DNA of 24,409 nucleotides from a virus: the IMG/VR virus record IMGVR_UViG_3300043433_000111, positions 1 to 24,409 of that record. One strand, given 5' to 3'. The notes under the pieces are model-generated. The model made no database searches and was not told the origin of the DNA. It was given only the letters and a program-made list of their open reading frames with translations. This document shows positions 2,765 to 19,017 of this stretch, piece by piece. Numbering within the stretch: the first letter of the stretch is position 1; each line of letters begins with the position of its first letter. The translations under genes and the position numbers were made by a program.

Positions 2765-5700
2765 ATGGATAAACAGTTATTAAATGCGTTAGATAATCTA
2801 TCAGAAGCACTTGTTATGATTTCGGAAGCCCTTGAAAAGAAAGGTACTAGTAATACTACGACTACTAATGTTTTACAGAGTGGTGATTTTTCAAAACAAA
2901 TTAAAGAAATTAATGCAGGTGTAAAATCTATAAAGTCGGATACTCAGGAAATTCTAAAAAATCAAAAAACAATTTTAGAAATATCTAAAAGTAAAGAGAA
3001 AAAAACAGGACTTTTTGAAGAAACCGCTGATAAAAAATCGGAAAGTAATATCAAAAAAGGCGTTAGTACTATTCTATTGATTGCAGTTGGTGTATTGGCA
3101 ATAGGACTCGCATTTAAATTAGTAGGTAGTGTTGACTTTTTATCGGTCATTGGACTATCAATGGCAATTCTTGTAATAGCGGTGGCATTTGAAAAGTTGG
3201 CTAAACTAAAACTAACACAGGATGATGCAATAAATACAACAAAGATACTGGTAATGATGGCACTGGGTATAACCGTATCATCTTGGATATTAAGTTTAGT
3301 AAGACCAATTGGTGTTACACAGGCACTTACTGCCATATTAATAGCAGGTATGTTTACTGTAATATCATTTGGTATTTCAAAAATATTAAAAGCATTAGGT
3401 GGTGAAAATGTTGTTACATTAGGTAAAAGTATTTTATTACTACCTATTTTACTACCAGCAATAGCATTAGGAATAACTTTATCATCCTGGGTATTATCCG
3501 CAGTCACACCAATAACACTAGGTCAAGCAGTTACTTCTATATTAATAGCAGGTATGTTTACTGTAATATCATTTGGCATTTCAAAAATATTAAAAGCATT
3601 AGGTGGTGAAAATGTTGTTACATTAGGTAAAAGTATTTTATTACTACCTATTTTACTACCAGCAATAGCATTAGGAATAACTTTATCATCCTGGGTACTA
3701 CAAATGGTTACACCAATAAGTTTTACACAAGCAATTACTTCTATATTGATAGCAGGTATGTTTACTGTAATATCATTTGGCATGGCAAAATTACTAAAAT
3801 CTCTTGAAGGTATTAGTCCAGGAACGATAGTTGGTGCGGTATTTATACTACCATTATTATTACCAGCAATGGCATTGGCCATCGCAGTATCATCACACGC
3901 ACTTGGTATGGTGATGCCTATAACCTTTGCACAATTTATTACTGCAATAGGTATATCAATTTTATTTATAGCATTTGCATTTGCTCTTAAATTAATTTTA
4001 CCAGTTGTTGGTAAGTTAGATATGGGTACTGTTATAAAAATACCTTTAGTTTTTACACTCTTAACTTTAGCAATTGCAGCATCGGCATATATATTATTCC
4101 AAGCACAAGAATACCTTAATGGTATATCATTTGGATCAATGATCAAAATACTGGTATTTAGTGTTTGTTTAGCAATATCTATAGCAGTTGTTGCCGCCGC
4201 AATGTGGGTTGTTAATAAATTAGGTAACCCAGAAACCTATTTCGCAGGTGGTATTTCATTGGTAATAATAGCAACTGCCATTATGGTGAGTTCATTGATA
4301 GTATCAGAAGGTAAATATGAAAAATACCCAGACTGGAAATGGTCTTTAGGTGTCGGACTTTCATTATTGACATTTGGTTTGGCCGCAGTTGAATTAGGAA
4401 CAATTGCAATGACTGGTGTTGGTGCTTTAGCCATATTAGCAGGAGCAGTTGCCATATTAGTAGTGGCGGCAACAGTAGTTGCGACTTCACACATTTTAGA
4501 CAAAGGTAAATATGAGAAATATCCAACTCTTGATTGGTCTATGGGAGTAGGTTTAAGTATGGTTGGATTTGGTATGGCTATGAGTACAATGGGTACATTT
4601 ATACTTGGATCACTTGGATTGGGTATGATAGCACTAATGACCGGTTCTAAGGCAGTATTAATGATAGCACAAACAATTGTTGATACATCATTTATATTAA
4701 GAAAGGGTAATTATACAGGAGGACCTACAAAAGCTTGGTCAGAGGGTATATCTCTTGCAATTGGAGCATTTTCACCAGTTTATGCAGCACTCAACAATGC
4801 AGGTTTCTTCAGTGTTAAAGTAACACCAGAACAAATGAGTTCTGGTATAATAAGTATTACCGATGGCATAATAACCGCGGCAAATAAATTTGCGAGTGTT
4901 AAAACATCATTTAAAAATGGACCTAGTAAAGCTTGGTCTGAAGGTGTTGGATTAGCAATTTCAGCATTTTCACCAGTTTATAAAGCACTTAGTTCAGGAG
5001 GATTCTTTAGTATTAAATTAACACCAGAACAAATGAGTTCTGGTATAATAAGTATAGTGGATGGTATAATACTTGCTGCAAATAAATTTTCAGAAAGTAA
5101 AGCGTCATTTAGTAGTGGACCAACAAAAGCTTGGTCTGAAGGTGTTGGTTCTGCAATGATAGCATTTAGTCCGATATTTAAAGCACTAAATAATGTAGGT
5201 TTATTCACATCAGGAAATGATGTAGTTGAAAGTATATTTAAAGGAATAACTTGGACGGCACAAGCAATTGTAAATGTTGCACATAAATTTTCAAAAGTAA
5301 AATCTAATGTTTGGGATTCTTATCCTAAGAAAGAATGGGTTAGTTCAGTAAAATCAATAATAAGTACATTTGTTGGTATAACCAACAGCATAAAGGATAT
5401 AAACTGGATTGAAATGGGTTCTATTGATAGAGTTGCATCTAAAATGGTCAATACTGCAAAAATATTAAGCAACGGTACTAGATTTTTTAATACAAGAATA
5501 GATCCTAATTATATCAGAAGTCTATCATCTAATGTTATTGGATTTGCAAATTTGGCAAAAAAACTAACAGAAATTAATAAAGGAGAAGGTGTTATAAAAA
5601 CTTTATTTGGACAGGATCCAGTATCACAAACTGCAAATTCAATGGTTAAATTAGCAAGTGCTTATGATAAACTAGCAAATGCCTTGAAAAAATTCGGTGG

Positions 5701-14520: not shown

Positions 14521-14530
14521 TTAATATATA
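14521..14530 (+). promoter_or_regulatory. Late-promoter-like box TTAATATATA for the accessory block
   Basis: An exact TTAATATATA on the plus strand lies 21 bases upstream of the ATG at 14552, almost the same spacing as for the divergent gene on the other side of this 80-base gap. Confidence 0.55.
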
Positions 14531-14551: not shown

Positions 14552-15328
14552 ATGAAATATATAAAATTATTTGAATCATTCTCAGATATGAGTTTTGATG
14601 ATTATAGAGAATATAAAGAAGAAGTGAAAGAGTTTCTATCAGGGAGTGGTGGTAATAATACATCTCAATTAAATAATGATGTTCTTGAGTATCTTGTCAA
14701 AGAATTAGGACTTGAAATGGTAAGAAAGTTTGAAAGAGAAATAAAAGATTTTGAAATGATGCAAGATATTTCTAATAAAGTATCAGATTCAATATCAGAA
14801 AACTTACAATACCACATAGATAATAATAAACCTATTGTGGAAAATGTATTTAGACCTGGGTCTAATAAATATTTAGATTTAATCAAAGAAGCTAGAGAAT
14901 TATATGATAAAAATAAAATTGAATTATCTGACTTAGATACTGAATTATTTGAATCAACTGATATAGGCATATTCTCAGAATATGAAGGTACTTCAGTTCC
15001 TTTGGATTTACCAATGGAAACTATTGAAGAATTAAACGAAGCCGAATACCAAGGTAGAGAAGTTAAGTTAAATTATCCAATGAGAGGTGGTACTAAGAAA
15101 TATCAAGTTTTTGTTAAAAATCCTAAAACTGGCAATGTTAAAAAGATTTCATTTGGTGATGTTCATGGTGGTTTAACTGCCAAAGTAAGTGATCCTAAAG
15201 CAAGAAAATCATTTGCAGCCAGACATAAGTGTGATACCAAGAAAGATAAAACTAAAGCAGGGTACTGGGCATGTAGAATAAATCGTTACAAACACATTTT
15301 TGGTAAGTCCTATCCAGGCTTCTGGTAA
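14552..15328 (+). CDS. Putative internal head protein with basic Cys/His-rich C-terminal domain
   Basis: The 258-residue protein has three parts. The N-terminus MKYIKLFESFSD looks like a capsid-targeting tag with a prohead-protease site L-F-E/S. An acidic helical middle follows. A second L-F-E/S occurs at residues 132-135. The C-terminal 80 residues are a strongly basic domain with SFGDVHGG, KARKSFAARHKCD, KAGYWACRINRY and a final KSYPGFW. This domain is widespread in phages (cyanophage-type proteins end similarly with RARHNC...YWSC); its function is unknown, and nucleic acid or head binding is a guess. Its TAA stop is followed in the same frame by a NUMOD-like open frame, described separately. 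It heads the plus-strand accessory block. Confidence 0.65.
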   Translation: MKYIKLFESFSDMSFDDYREYKEEVKEFLSGSGGNNTSQLNNDVLEYLVKELGLEMVRKFEREIKDFEMMQDISNKVSDSISENLQYHIDNNKPIVENVFRPGSNKYLDLIKEARELYDKNKIELSDLDTELFESTDIGIFSEYEGTSVPLDLPMETIEELNEAEYQGREVKLNYPMRGGTKKYQVFVKNPKTGNVKKISFGDVHGGLTAKVSDPKARKSFAARHKCDTKKDKTKAGYWACRINRYKHIFGKSYPGFW

Positions 15329-15640
15329 TCTAAGGGAGGGCAAAAGAGAATTTCAATAGATAATAAAATATATGAATCTATAACAGATGCTACAAAAGAA
15401 CTTAATAAAACTCATGATTATATTAACTGGAGGTTAAATTCCAAATCATATCCAAATTGGTCTTATTTGGATAAAGTGGTTGAATTGAAAGAAACTGGTA
15501 TACCAAAACTAAAATCTGTTTCTATAAATGGTATAATATATGAATCTATTTCAAATGCAGTAATTGGTTCAGGTATAGATAGACAAGTTATAAGATATAG
15601 ATTAAAATCAAAAAATTATCCTGAGTATTTTTATATATAG
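15329..15640 (+). pseudogene. Startless remnant of a homing endonuclease with two NUMOD1-like repeats
   Basis: Between two genes lies an open frame without any ATG that ends in TAG at 15638-15640. It translates to two similar units, ISIDNKIYESITDATKELN...WRLNSKSYPNWSYLD and VSINGIIYESISNAV...RYRLKSKNYPEYFYI, matching the NUMOD1 DNA-binding repeats found at the C-termini of phage HNH and GIY-YIG homing endonucleases. The catalytic part is absent. The frame is exactly in phase with the gene ending at 15328, separated only by its TAA. A purine-rich AAGGGAGGG at 15332-15340 looks like a Shine-Dalgarno but has no ATG behind it. It is best read as a decayed tail; a rare start codon or readthrough fusion is less likely. 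Confidence 0.6.
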
Positions 15641-15644
15641 AATT

Positions 15645-16022
15645 ATGAAATATTTAAAGAAGTTTAATGAGTCCATTTTGGATAACAAATTTGAAATAGA
15701 GACAGATAAATATGATGATGATAAATTTCATTTTTATGTTGATGATATAAAAGTAGGATATATTTATATAGTATTATATGAGGAAAATGAAATATATCTA
15801 TCATCTTTTACTATTTTTGATGAATATCAAAATAAAGGATTTGGAAAAATATTTATGAGAAAAATATTAGATTTCATTAAAACCAAATATAAGGAAGAAT
15901 TTATAAAATTATCTGTAGGATATACTAATAAAATTGCAATAAATATGTATAAAAAATTTGGGTTTAAAGAAGCATATCAAAATAACAAGTATGAATTCTA
16001 TATGATAAAAGAAAATAAATAA
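15645..16022 (+). CDS. GNAT-family N-acetyltransferase with capsid-targeting-like N-terminus
   Basis: This is a 125-residue protein with the GNAT acetyl-CoA-binding core. The beta strand ending SSFTIFDEYQ is followed by the pyrophosphate loop Q-N-K-G-F-G (62-67) and helix KIFMRKILDFIK, and then the typical motif B, NKIAINMYKKFGFKE (93-107). The length is near the family minimum but the core is intact, so it should be active; the substrate is unknown. The first ten residues, MKYLKKFNES, precede the fold and resemble the tags on the genes at 14552 and 16411. The gene begins four bases after the NUMOD remnant. Its stop TAA is followed by an in-phase open stretch of 42 codons. Confidence 0.75.
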   Translation: MKYLKKFNESILDNKFEIETDKYDDDKFHFYVDDIKVGYIYIVLYEENEIYLSSFTIFDEYQNKGFGKIFMRKILDFIKTKYKEEFIKLSVGYTNKIAINMYKKFGFKEAYQNNKYEFYMIKENK

Positions 16023-16151
16023 TCACCAAAAGCAGCAATTGTTTGGCAGAGATTGGACAAAGAAGATAAGTATAATGTTGAAACTATTGATCGTAATTTT
16101 CCAGGTTATATACCTGATAGACATAGTGAAAAAAGAATTACCTTAAAATAA
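16023..16151 (+). pseudogene. Orphan C-terminal gene fragment
   Basis: After the acetyltransferase stop, 42 sense codons run in the same frame to a TAA that overlaps the next ATG (TAATG). The translation has a natural-looking composition (KAAIVWQRLDKED, NFPGYIPDRHSEKRITLK) but has no ATG start. It looks like the last 40 residues of a gene whose front was replaced, perhaps by the acetyltransferase. No family is recognised. A TTG at about 16053 could give a 32-residue peptide; chance openness cannot be excluded. Confidence 0.4.
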
Positions 16152-16414
16152 TGAAATTACCTTTCAAAGAAGAAATAGTATCCGATAATATATTTATCAG
16201 AGAGTTTAAACAAGATACTGACTCTGGTGAGTTTATGTGGCATAGAGATAGAGAAGATAGAATAATTGAATCTATAGATGAAACAGATTGGCAAATACAA
16301 TTAGATGATGAATTACCAAAAGTTATTCAAGGTGAAGTTTTTATACCAATGGGTGTTTATCATAGAGTTATAAAAGGAACTGGAGACTTAAAAATAAGAT
16401 TACAAAAGTTATGA
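16151..16414 (+). CDS. Small cupin-like protein
   Basis: The 87-residue protein consists of short beta-strand-like segments with a His in FMWHRDREDR (His31) and a second in IPMGVYHRVIKG (His71). This is the spacing and PxGxxH pattern of a single-domain cupin. It resembles small conserved proteins of T4-like cyanophages. With few classical metal ligands it may be a binding rather than an enzymatic cupin, and its ligand is unknown. The ATG overlaps the end of the preceding fragment (TAATG), and its TGA overlaps the next ATG (ATGA), so it is translated in a coupled series. Confidence 0.7.
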   Translation: MKLPFKEEIVSDNIFIREFKQDTDSGEFMWHRDREDRIIESIDETDWQIQLDDELPKVIQGEVFIPMGVYHRVIKGTGDLKIRLQKL

Positions 16415-16917
16415 AATACTTAAAGACATTTGAAGCAGTTGGTAATGTTAAAAGAAATAGTAGAAACATAAATGATAAAGAATTTATCAGTTCAATGGAA
16501 GACAGTATAGAAGCTATATTTATTGATATGATTGATGATGGGTTTGAACTTGATATGACACTAACTGACTGGGGTGGTAATTGTGGTCACATTTCAATAA
16601 AAAAATGGGCAAACAACAAAAAAATCACTGAATACCTTGATATATTTCATATGTTTTTTGATTATATAACTGAAAAGGGTTATAGTATTGGTGATATAAA
16701 TCTTGGTGGTTGGATCAAAGATGAAAATGATAAAGCAATATCTTTTAACAATAAAAGTTGGGAATTTGTTGAAGAACATTTAATTAAAGCAACTAAAGAC
16801 AGAAATTTTAGTGGTCTATTATTATACTTGGATCCAATCAAAACTAAATGGGTTAAAGATGAAAATGGTAGAGGTGAGTATGTTCCATTATACAAATTAA
16901 AAAACCCTATTATATAA
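16411..16917 (+). CDS. Hypothetical protein with capsid-targeting-like N-terminus
   Basis: This 168-residue acidic protein is of unrecognised family. The N-terminus MKYLKTFEAVG carries the same kind of tag as the genes at 14552 and 15645, with F-E/A as the potential prohead-protease site. The rest is mixed alpha/beta, with conserved-looking patches TDWGGNCGHISIKKWA (about 51-66) and IGDINLGGWIKDEND. No membrane segment is present. The start is coupled to the cupin gene by an ATGA overlap. The last codons (KNPII and stop) fall within the terminator hairpin, and the gene overlaps the convergent minus-strand gene by eight bases. Confidence 0.7.
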   Translation: MKYLKTFEAVGNVKRNSRNINDKEFISSMEDSIEAIFIDMIDDGFELDMTLTDWGGNCGHISIKKWANNKKITEYLDIFHMFFDYITEKGYSIGDINLGGWIKDENDKAISFNNKSWEFVEEHLIKATKDRNFSGLLLYLDPIKTKWVKDENGRGEYVPLYKLKNPII

Positions 16918-18340: not shown

Positions 18341-18350
18341 TTAATATATA
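18341..18350 (+). promoter_or_regulatory. Late-promoter-like box TTAATATATA for the tail tube gene
   Basis: An exact TTAATATATA lies 47 bases upstream of the ATG at 18397, with a related TAATATATAG at 18310-18319. The leader contains a small hairpin (TAACTT/AAGTTA, 18360-18374) and then an A-rich stretch (ATTAAAAACAA) directly before the ATG, with no Shine-Dalgarno. Confidence 0.5.
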
Positions 18351-18396: not shown

Positions 18397-19017
18397 ATGC
18401 CATTACCACATTATACGCAAATCCAAGGTGTAGGTTCACCAGGTGGACCTGGAACGCTTCCAGATGAAGTAGTATACCTTAACTTATTTGAGGTAACATT
18501 TATCTTACCAGTTCTTTTACAAGCACAAGGTAGAGATCCTATCTTATTGTTACAAAATGCCACTAAAATTAGTATGAATACTACTGAATTTGATGTTGCA
18601 CAAAAAACTCAAAGATTCAAGTATTCAACTAGAGTGTTTAATACTACTCCAACTAAAACTGATGGTACATTAGCAATTCCAATTCAAGTGAATGTTAATC
18701 AACAAGGTTCTATGGAGAATTGGAATACTATGAAGGCATGGTATGACTTAGTATTTAATTCACAAAATGGCGCACTTCATTATAAAAGTGATATTATTGG
18801 TACTATTATTGTTAATCAACATGATAAAAAAGGTGTTGTATTAAGAAGAATTACTTACCAAAATGTTCAAATAACTAAATTAGGTGGATATGAATTGGAT
18901 TGGAGTACAAACAATATTATCGAATCTGTTAATGCGGATTTCGTTTATGATTACTTTATCGATGAGTATATTGATAATAACTTTACAATTAACCCACCGT
19001 TAGTTTCAGGGTATTAG
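18397..19017 (+). CDS. Tail tube protein (T4 gp19-like)
   Basis: The 206-residue protein resembles tube proteins of contractile tails (T4 gp19, 163 residues). It is beta-rich, with a strand pattern VVYLNLFEVTFILPVLL near the start, a central YSTRVFNTTPTKTDGTLAIPIQVNV, an alpha helix WNTMKAWYDLVFN, and C-terminal ITYQNVQITKLGGYELDWSTNNIIESVNADFVYDYFI. The G/P-rich front (VGSPGGPGTLP) is an extension relative to T4. It polymerises as stacked rings inside the sheath. The gene is alone on its strand, away from the sheath gene at 20417, unlike T4 where genes 18 and 19 are adjacent. It ends in TAG and is followed by a GC-rich relic and a terminator. Confidence 0.75.
   Translation: MPLPHYTQIQGVGSPGGPGTLPDEVVYLNLFEVTFILPVLLQAQGRDPILLLQNATKISMNTTEFDVAQKTQRFKYSTRVFNTTPTKTDGTLAIPIQVNVNQQGSMENWNTMKAWYDLVFNSQNGALHYKSDIIGTIIVNQHDKKGVVLRRITYQNVQITKLGGYELDWSTNNIIESVNADFVYDYFIDEYIDNNFTINPPLVSGY

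Follow-up and report, generated by a model that had tools for sequence, protein, structure and literature searches.

Why should three genes in one block of a viral genome begin with nearly the same short peptide, when the proteins that they encode otherwise have nothing in common? As originally predicted, the starts MKYIKLFESF, MKYLKKFNES, and MKYLKTFEAV are found at positions 14552, 15645, and 16411 of the window, the whole 24.4-kb record that was analyzed, and the bodies behind them are unrelated, each belonging to its own BLAST family. The original prediction took these starts for capsid-targeting tags like those of T4, cut by a gp21-type protease after the Glu of an (I/L)xE site, and the proteins for cargo that is packaged in the head and injected with the DNA.

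The window is, from its sequence, a Mahaphage-like fragment of a T4-related huge phage. Between its tail sheath (1293 aa) and the sheaths of LR745206.1 (635 kb) and LR756502.1 (642 kb), identity is 68% and 63%, respectively, and by the same protein LR756504 (636 kb), LR756501 (735 kb), and LR756500 (462 kb) are farther away. These five genomes of 462-735 kb, each joined from pieces, are the relatives used for comparison, and LR745206, LR756502, and LR756504 are the three closest. The Mahaphage clade has genomes of 634, 636, 642, and 735 kb, with hosts predicted to be Bacteroidetes (PMC7162821). LR745206, from the subsurface in Japan, has been grouped with LR756502, from a freshwater lake in France, and no megaphage had been cultured as of that report (PMC9723777).

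Results

The first gene of the tagged cluster (14552-15328, plus strand) encodes a protein of 258 aa with the conserved C-terminal domain phrog_7595. Its tag, MKYIKLFE↓SF, occupies 14552-14575 as read from the ORF (the arrow, here and below, marks the presumed cleavage point). The protein differs from its near orthologues, which begin MKYLKLFESFSGRISENLQYHIDNNKP, by about 66 additional residues separating the tag from the body. Orthologues are present in many other T4-like phages, often with different N-terminal tags, such as MNTLRNLIKE↓S, MDLKKLIKE↓A, and MNLRKVITE↓A, and many of their starts look like tags that contain a hydrophobic-x-Glu↓Ala/Ser site. Since the AlphaFold model is of low confidence (mean pLDDT 69.6, pTM 0.38) and a search of the PDB gave no match (best E 0.93), we assign no function to this protein.

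The second gene (15645-16022, plus strand) encodes a GNAT acetyltransferase of 125 aa (PF00583, E = 4e-12), and its ORF gives the tag MKYLKKFNE↓S at 15645-15671. One orthologue in IMG/VR keeps MKYLMKFNES, with different residues after the tag, and the homologue in LR756502 is tagged as well; a search of GenBank phages gave no homologues. The third protein (16411-16917, plus strand; 168 aa), with the tag MKYLKTFE↓AV at 16411-16434 as read from its ORF, has no homologues in IMG/VR or GenBank phages. The original prediction did not include a fourth tagged gene, at 1946-2230 on the minus strand (ORF 1946-2236, likely start 2230), whose product is small and has orthologues in related contigs. It begins MIIKKFTQFNE, and its tag (2198-2230) reads MIIKKFTQFNE↓AISGTE, where relatives have MIKKFYQFINE↓ISGTE and MIKRFEDFINE↓VSGTE.

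Two further pieces of DNA lie in the same block. A piece at 15467-15640 (plus strand), between two tagged genes, matches the I-TevI DNA-binding domain (PF20987, 2.6e-8) and is probably what remains of a homing endonuclease. An open stretch without a start codon, KAAIVWQRLDKEDKYNVETIDRNFPGYIPDRHSEKRITLK, at 16025-16150 (plus strand), between the GNAT gene and position 16151, looks like a gene remnant.

How widespread is the tag? In an unbiased comparison, residues 2-10 of each ORF were compared with those of all others, and a gene was counted if it had at least three N-terminal neighbors. Shared N-termini were found for 161 of 955 genes in LR745206, 187 of 984 in LR756502, 99 of 939 in LR756504, 125 of 1032 in LR756501, and 47 of 695 in LR756500; the shuffled control gave 10, 1, 7, 1, and 2, respectively. 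A stricter regular expression gave 110, 138, 62, 43, and 27 tagged genes in the same order, a few of which are chance matches (3-5 per genome in shuffled sequences). Simple expressions of this kind also miss tags, and variants such as MIIKKYIKFIKEN, MEHIKKFETF, and MIYLRPYKLFES were scored as untagged. Of 14,494 internal Met residues in the five relatives, none is followed by KY[IL]K.F, whereas 41 of the 2,878 genes that the three closest genomes have begin with MKY[IL]K.F. Thus, the shared starts are not due to chance. A looser pattern at the DNA level matched 42, 36, and 24 times in LR745206, LR756502, and LR756504, compared with 0-1 matches for the reversed control pattern. The tag, about 8-13 residues long, evidently is an address label; each genome of these related huge phages has some 50 to 190 proteins that carry it and are otherwise unrelated.

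In LR756501, a second short motif, DPYGEE[IDN]W[DN], is located behind the tag in several otherwise unrelated proteins, for example, in those of the genes at 5130, 132555, 297634, 338419, 474929, 475399, and 475851.

Tagged genes also share a promoter-like element, AATATATA. It was found by an unbiased k-mer search after two known promoter patterns, that of T4 late genes, TATAAATA, and that of Bacteroidota, TTTG-N-TAnnTTTG, had shown no consistent enrichment upstream of tagged genes. Among tagged genes preceded by an intergenic gap, 33/39 in LR745206, 33/41 in LR756502, and 20/34 in LR756504 have AATATATA in the 80 nt before the gene, while the values for untagged genes are 84/320 (26%), 87/329 (26%), and 74/445 (17%). 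The association of AATATATA with tagged genes is not significant in LR756501 and LR756500, and this counts against the tag being a targeting signal. The form [AT]ATATATA is located before 12 of 13 genes for capsid, protease, portal, sheath, and wedge-like proteins but before only 2 of 13 replication genes, and we read AATATATA as a putative late promoter. The window genes with AATATATA upstream include the tagged gene at 14552, the tail tube gene, and the sheath gene. The element at 14523-14530 (plus strand) is 29 nt before the ATG at 14552, and, for comparison, that at 18343-18350 (plus strand) precedes the tail tube gene at 18397. The GNAT gene has the element TATATATA at 15632-15639 (plus strand), which, at 13 nt before the ATG at 15645, belongs to a short-spacing class.

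Genome-wide in LR745206, LR756502, and LR756504, the spacing of AATATATA/TATATATA to the ATG falls into two classes, 12-13 nt and 25-42 nt, and the shorter one, to which a large number of genes belong, possibly reflects leaderless late mRNAs or a translation element. Could the tag itself be a signal for translation or transcription, for example, on leaderless mRNAs, with the first codons aiding initiation? In these three genomes the short spacing is confined very sharply to 12-13 nt, and the codons of the tag are A/T-rich. However, conservation is at the level of the amino acids. The same positions of the tag alternate between AAA/AAG/AGA, TAT/TAC/CAT/CAC, and TTT/TTC/TAT/TAC, that is, by synonymous changes and changes between related amino acids, and thus selection acts on the peptide. 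Furthermore, genes without an upstream gap are still tagged, untagged genes also use the short spacing, and the Glu site would be left without a role, so an expression signal is a very improbable explanation.

Targeting followed by cleavage, as originally predicted, involves a gp21-type protease. None is visible inside the 24-kb window, which is a fragment. In all five of the closest complete relatives, an S77 protease gene is located immediately upstream of the PF07068 (Gp23) capsid gene, a result that favors the original prediction; LR756500 alone has a match to PF03420 (S77, gp21-type) that exceeds the curated cut-off, and the E values in the other four are 1e-4 to 4e-6. T4-type portal genes are present together with those for the Gp23 capsid protein. 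The protease ORF, of 632-807 aa, continues after the protease into a scaffold-like region of tandem repeats, NIxYSEY[IL]AENLDK, with 12-15 regex matches in four genomes (LR745206 198546-200669, LR756502 225272-227371, LR756504 185342-187636, and LR756501 73913-76336) and a looser version in LR756500. The YSEYIAE of the repeat is near to the T4 tag, TYQEFIAE, and to the tag cores KYNTYINE, EYEDFINE, and KFNSFINE. The short N-terminal regions of the capsid proteins similarly end in YAEFHSINE↓N, YAEFHQINE↓N, YAEMHQMNE↓N, YAEYHQIHE↓N, and YAHYHELYE↓N, with the cleavage points presumed. In T4, taken as a control, the coding sequence of MKTYQEFIAE was found twice, exactly, and gp23 and gp22 have FGSFLTE↓AE and QLIAE↓AQ.

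In two small tagged proteins (LR745206 93266 and LR756502 80294), the part behind the tag is homologous to the capsid protein, starting at the presumed cleavage point of the latter. At the junction they read MRYLKPYKKFIE↓NA... and MKHLKNYKSFNE↓DA..., and in the alignment MRYLKPYKKFIE↓NADGSS-TSGMGAVSSAQPGGLAGTT is set against EYAEFHSINE↓NAYANASNVSGMGAVVAAQPASLAGTT of the capsid protein. Thus, the tag occupies the place of the propeptide. Over all tagged proteins, [ILF]NE is found within residues 6-30 in 20-44%, compared with 4-8% of untagged proteins (p = 5e-4 to 2e-17), and beyond these residues it is back to the background of 0-10%. The (I/L)xE site of the original prediction is strictly present in LFE↓S of the protein at 14552 but not in FNE↓S (15645), TFE↓A (16411), or FNE↓A of the fourth protein. 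The residue at P3 is F, T, or Y, not I/L, at many first-Glu tag sites, an observation that speaks against targeting, and the cleavage consensus for this clade would have to be relaxed to about [ILF]xE↓[SNAGED].

Tag sets are also found in other phage lineages. In Sphingomonas phage PAU, at least 16 genes begin MKT[LI][ST]xLYE[AS] or nearly so (the MKTLxxLYE dialect), and two of these are directly upstream of the protease gene and three are between the protease and capsid genes. The corresponding neighborhood of protease and capsid in T4 is occupied by the core genes 67, 68, and 22. Lak-A1 has tags of the form MNKxIKxLLE[SN], and Flavobacterium phage MaF61 has MKKxYKI[FY]E tags together with the capsid site RKIYE↓S. 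PTm1 has a relative of the protease and no clear set of tags, which is a further point against targeting. The dialects vary by lineage but end in one kind of site. Any address tag would give an identical picture in the sequence, and the proteins could be directed, uncut, to the tail or baseplate, to a membrane, or to an intracellular phage compartment. Such a destination would not account for the likeness of the tag to the T4 head tag, the repeats of the protease-scaffold, and the propeptide of the capsid protein, or for the position of tagged genes beside those for protease and capsid in PAU; moreover, the identified sheath, tube, and portal-like genes have no tag. We consider it unlikely.

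Is the shared start then an inherited one, left from a single gene that was duplicated many times until only its N-terminus was recognizable? The 380 proteins tagged by regular expression fall into 322 BLAST body families, 225 of them singletons, and this number is an overestimate, since BLAST splits the '[IL]xDDGF' superfamily. Profile searches place 64 small proteins of LR745206 and LR756502 in this superfamily, 48 tagged and 16 less clearly tagged; many are encoded by neighboring genes, for example, at 10-80 kb in LR756502. It is a genuine paralogous superfamily with often adjacent members, and the protein at 16411 of the window matches it weakly (E = 0.0019). Yet it covers 48 of the 248 tagged proteins of LR745206 and LR756502, leaving 200 outside, and the three remaining genomes have no tagged members. 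The tag is also found on a 2H phosphoesterase, a DEDDh exonuclease, NUDIX, NFACT-R, and GNAT proteins, an M15 peptidase, and a piece of capsid protein, and many folds are thus already indicated among the tagged bodies by Pfam matches. Tags are, furthermore, swapped between orthologues: in one pair from LR745206 and LR756502, MIIKKYIKFINEE-FDHL is found against MKYLRTYEG-FDHL, with bodies that are 84% identical. In reciprocal best pairs of these two genomes, identity over the first residues is 58% for tagged proteins, with 52% for the bodies, while the values for untagged proteins are 34% and 55%. Orthologues evidently either keep their tags or exchange them, and common descent of the tagged genes is an improbable source of the shared starts.

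What do the tagged proteins do? Only about 7 of 108 tagged LR745206 proteins have Pfam matches: a fusion of a 2H phosphoesterase with a DEDDh exonuclease, NUDIX, NFACT-R, an M15 peptidase, a MazE-like protein, and two families of unknown function. The 2H phosphoesterase of the fusion (LR745206 448257-449573, minus strand) is a weak match to the anti-CBASS protein Acb1, and LR756502 has a tagged Acb1-like 2H phosphoesterase without the fusion (473773-474312; PF23474, E = 1.6e-6, barely above the cut-off). By Pfam, the tagged LR745206 set has no replication, translation, or tail protein except for the exonuclease domain; such functions occur among large untagged proteins, a set chosen as untagged. 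PADLOC found only the DEDDh protein and one weak candidate in the tagged set, and there are no Pfam matches of the IPI-III type among the window proteins or the tagged LR745206 set. The tagged bodies are more acidic than untagged proteins in four of the five relatives, and this too counts against targeting, the T4 internal proteins being generally described as unlike these acidic bodies.

Discussion

The best explanation of the shared starts is that they target proteins to the capsid and are then cleaved off, to which we give a probability of about 0.82. Sequences similar to the tag are found in the propeptide of the capsid protein, in the protease-scaffold repeats, and in the T4 internal proteins. 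Targeting is the part of the original prediction that is best supported, by the machinery of the relatives and the likeness of the sites, whereas the strict (I/L)xE consensus fits only one of the window tags.

In the proposed mechanism, the N-terminal 8-13 or so residues, with their basic start, aromatic residues, and hydrophobic-x-Glu site, would form a T4-type capsid-targeting sequence. During late expression, the tag would dock the new protein onto the prohead core, which may consist largely of the repeat region fused to the prohead protease. As the head matures, the protease would cut after the Glu of the tag, the scaffold repeats, and the capsid propeptide. The tag would then depart, and the cargo would remain in the head with the DNA and enter the host at infection. 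The tagged proteins of the window, including the GNAT acetyltransferase, would be a few among many such cargo proteins. Injection of the tagged cargo into the host, for which T4 is the analogy, seems to us fairly probable, if somewhat less so than targeting. The T-even internal proteins have been described as diverse defence and counter-defence proteins that are conserved in the tag only (PMC3012670), and the T4 internal proteins and Alt enter the cell (PMC7411985), so a role of the cargo in counter-defence or host takeover is a reasonable guess, no more. The comparison of the GNAT protein with T4 Alt has a single basis, namely that each is a tagged enzyme.

Since proteins with the label most likely go into the head and lose it there by cleavage, these viruses may bring a large, ready-made protein cargo into the bacterium. 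We lean slightly toward a wider proposal, that in the largest known phages up to one fifth of the genes have a cleavable capsid address, with perhaps 100 different effectors delivered at once by one virion, lineage dialects that co-evolve with the site in protease-scaffold and capsid, and cargo status conferred via tag swaps. The effectors would perhaps include the Acb1-like 2H phosphoesterase-exonuclease fusion, the acetyltransferase, NUDIX, and many unknown families. If this is true, the tag alone would be enough to recognize, in the genome of a huge phage that is uncultured, the proteins that it injects, and dozens of hypothetical proteins per genome would become candidate effectors for host takeover or counter-defence. 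It would also help to account for part of the coding capacity of huge phages and make tags with new specificities available to those who wish to load phage heads with proteins, with Sphingomonas phage PAU as a cultured member for a direct test.

The mechanism is known from T4; against the literature searched, what is new is its scale, the existence of dialects, and a protease fused to repeats that mirror the tag. No description of such tags in huge phages, or of a tag on 5-20% of genes, was found in that literature, which mostly lay outside preprints and subscription papers. In T4, the capsid-targeting sequence is found on IPI-III and Alt (Mullaney and Black 1996, cited in PMC7411985; PMC3012670). 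As in T4, a short N-terminal tag with aromatic residues and a hydrophobic-x-Glu site is found on unrelated proteins, and the relatives have an S77 protease and a gp23-type capsid, with similar sites, at presumed cleavage points, in the capsid propeptide and scaffold. Unlike T4, with its four such proteins, these phages have about 50 to 190 tagged genes per genome, lineage-specific consensus sequences, bodies that are acidic, and scaffold-like repeats in the same ORF as the protease. IPI-III are small and basic, and neither the window proteins nor the tagged LR745206 set match them by Pfam; the enzyme of the window is a GNAT, whereas Alt has an ADP-ribosyltransferase domain.

The giant phages SPN3US, PhiKZ, and 201phi2-1 also have head proteins cleaved by a prohead protease and a large ejected cargo (PMC10052503, PMC5694885). 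The number of tagged proteins here is far above the 9-19 protease substrates known for them (PMC10052503), which weighs against targeting. They are a separate lineage, with many propeptides of about 110-130 residues and no common short tag reported, whereas tags of about 8-13 residues with a T4-type portal and Gp23 are found here rather than phiKZ-type head genes and long propeptides. We know of no shared short tag of such a kind on injected proteins of the P1 DarA/Hdf type. These and other injected anti-restriction proteins have an unrelated assembly pathway but are carried in the head and counter defence (PMC12810830, PMC12373910), as the tagged proteins of these huge phages may do.
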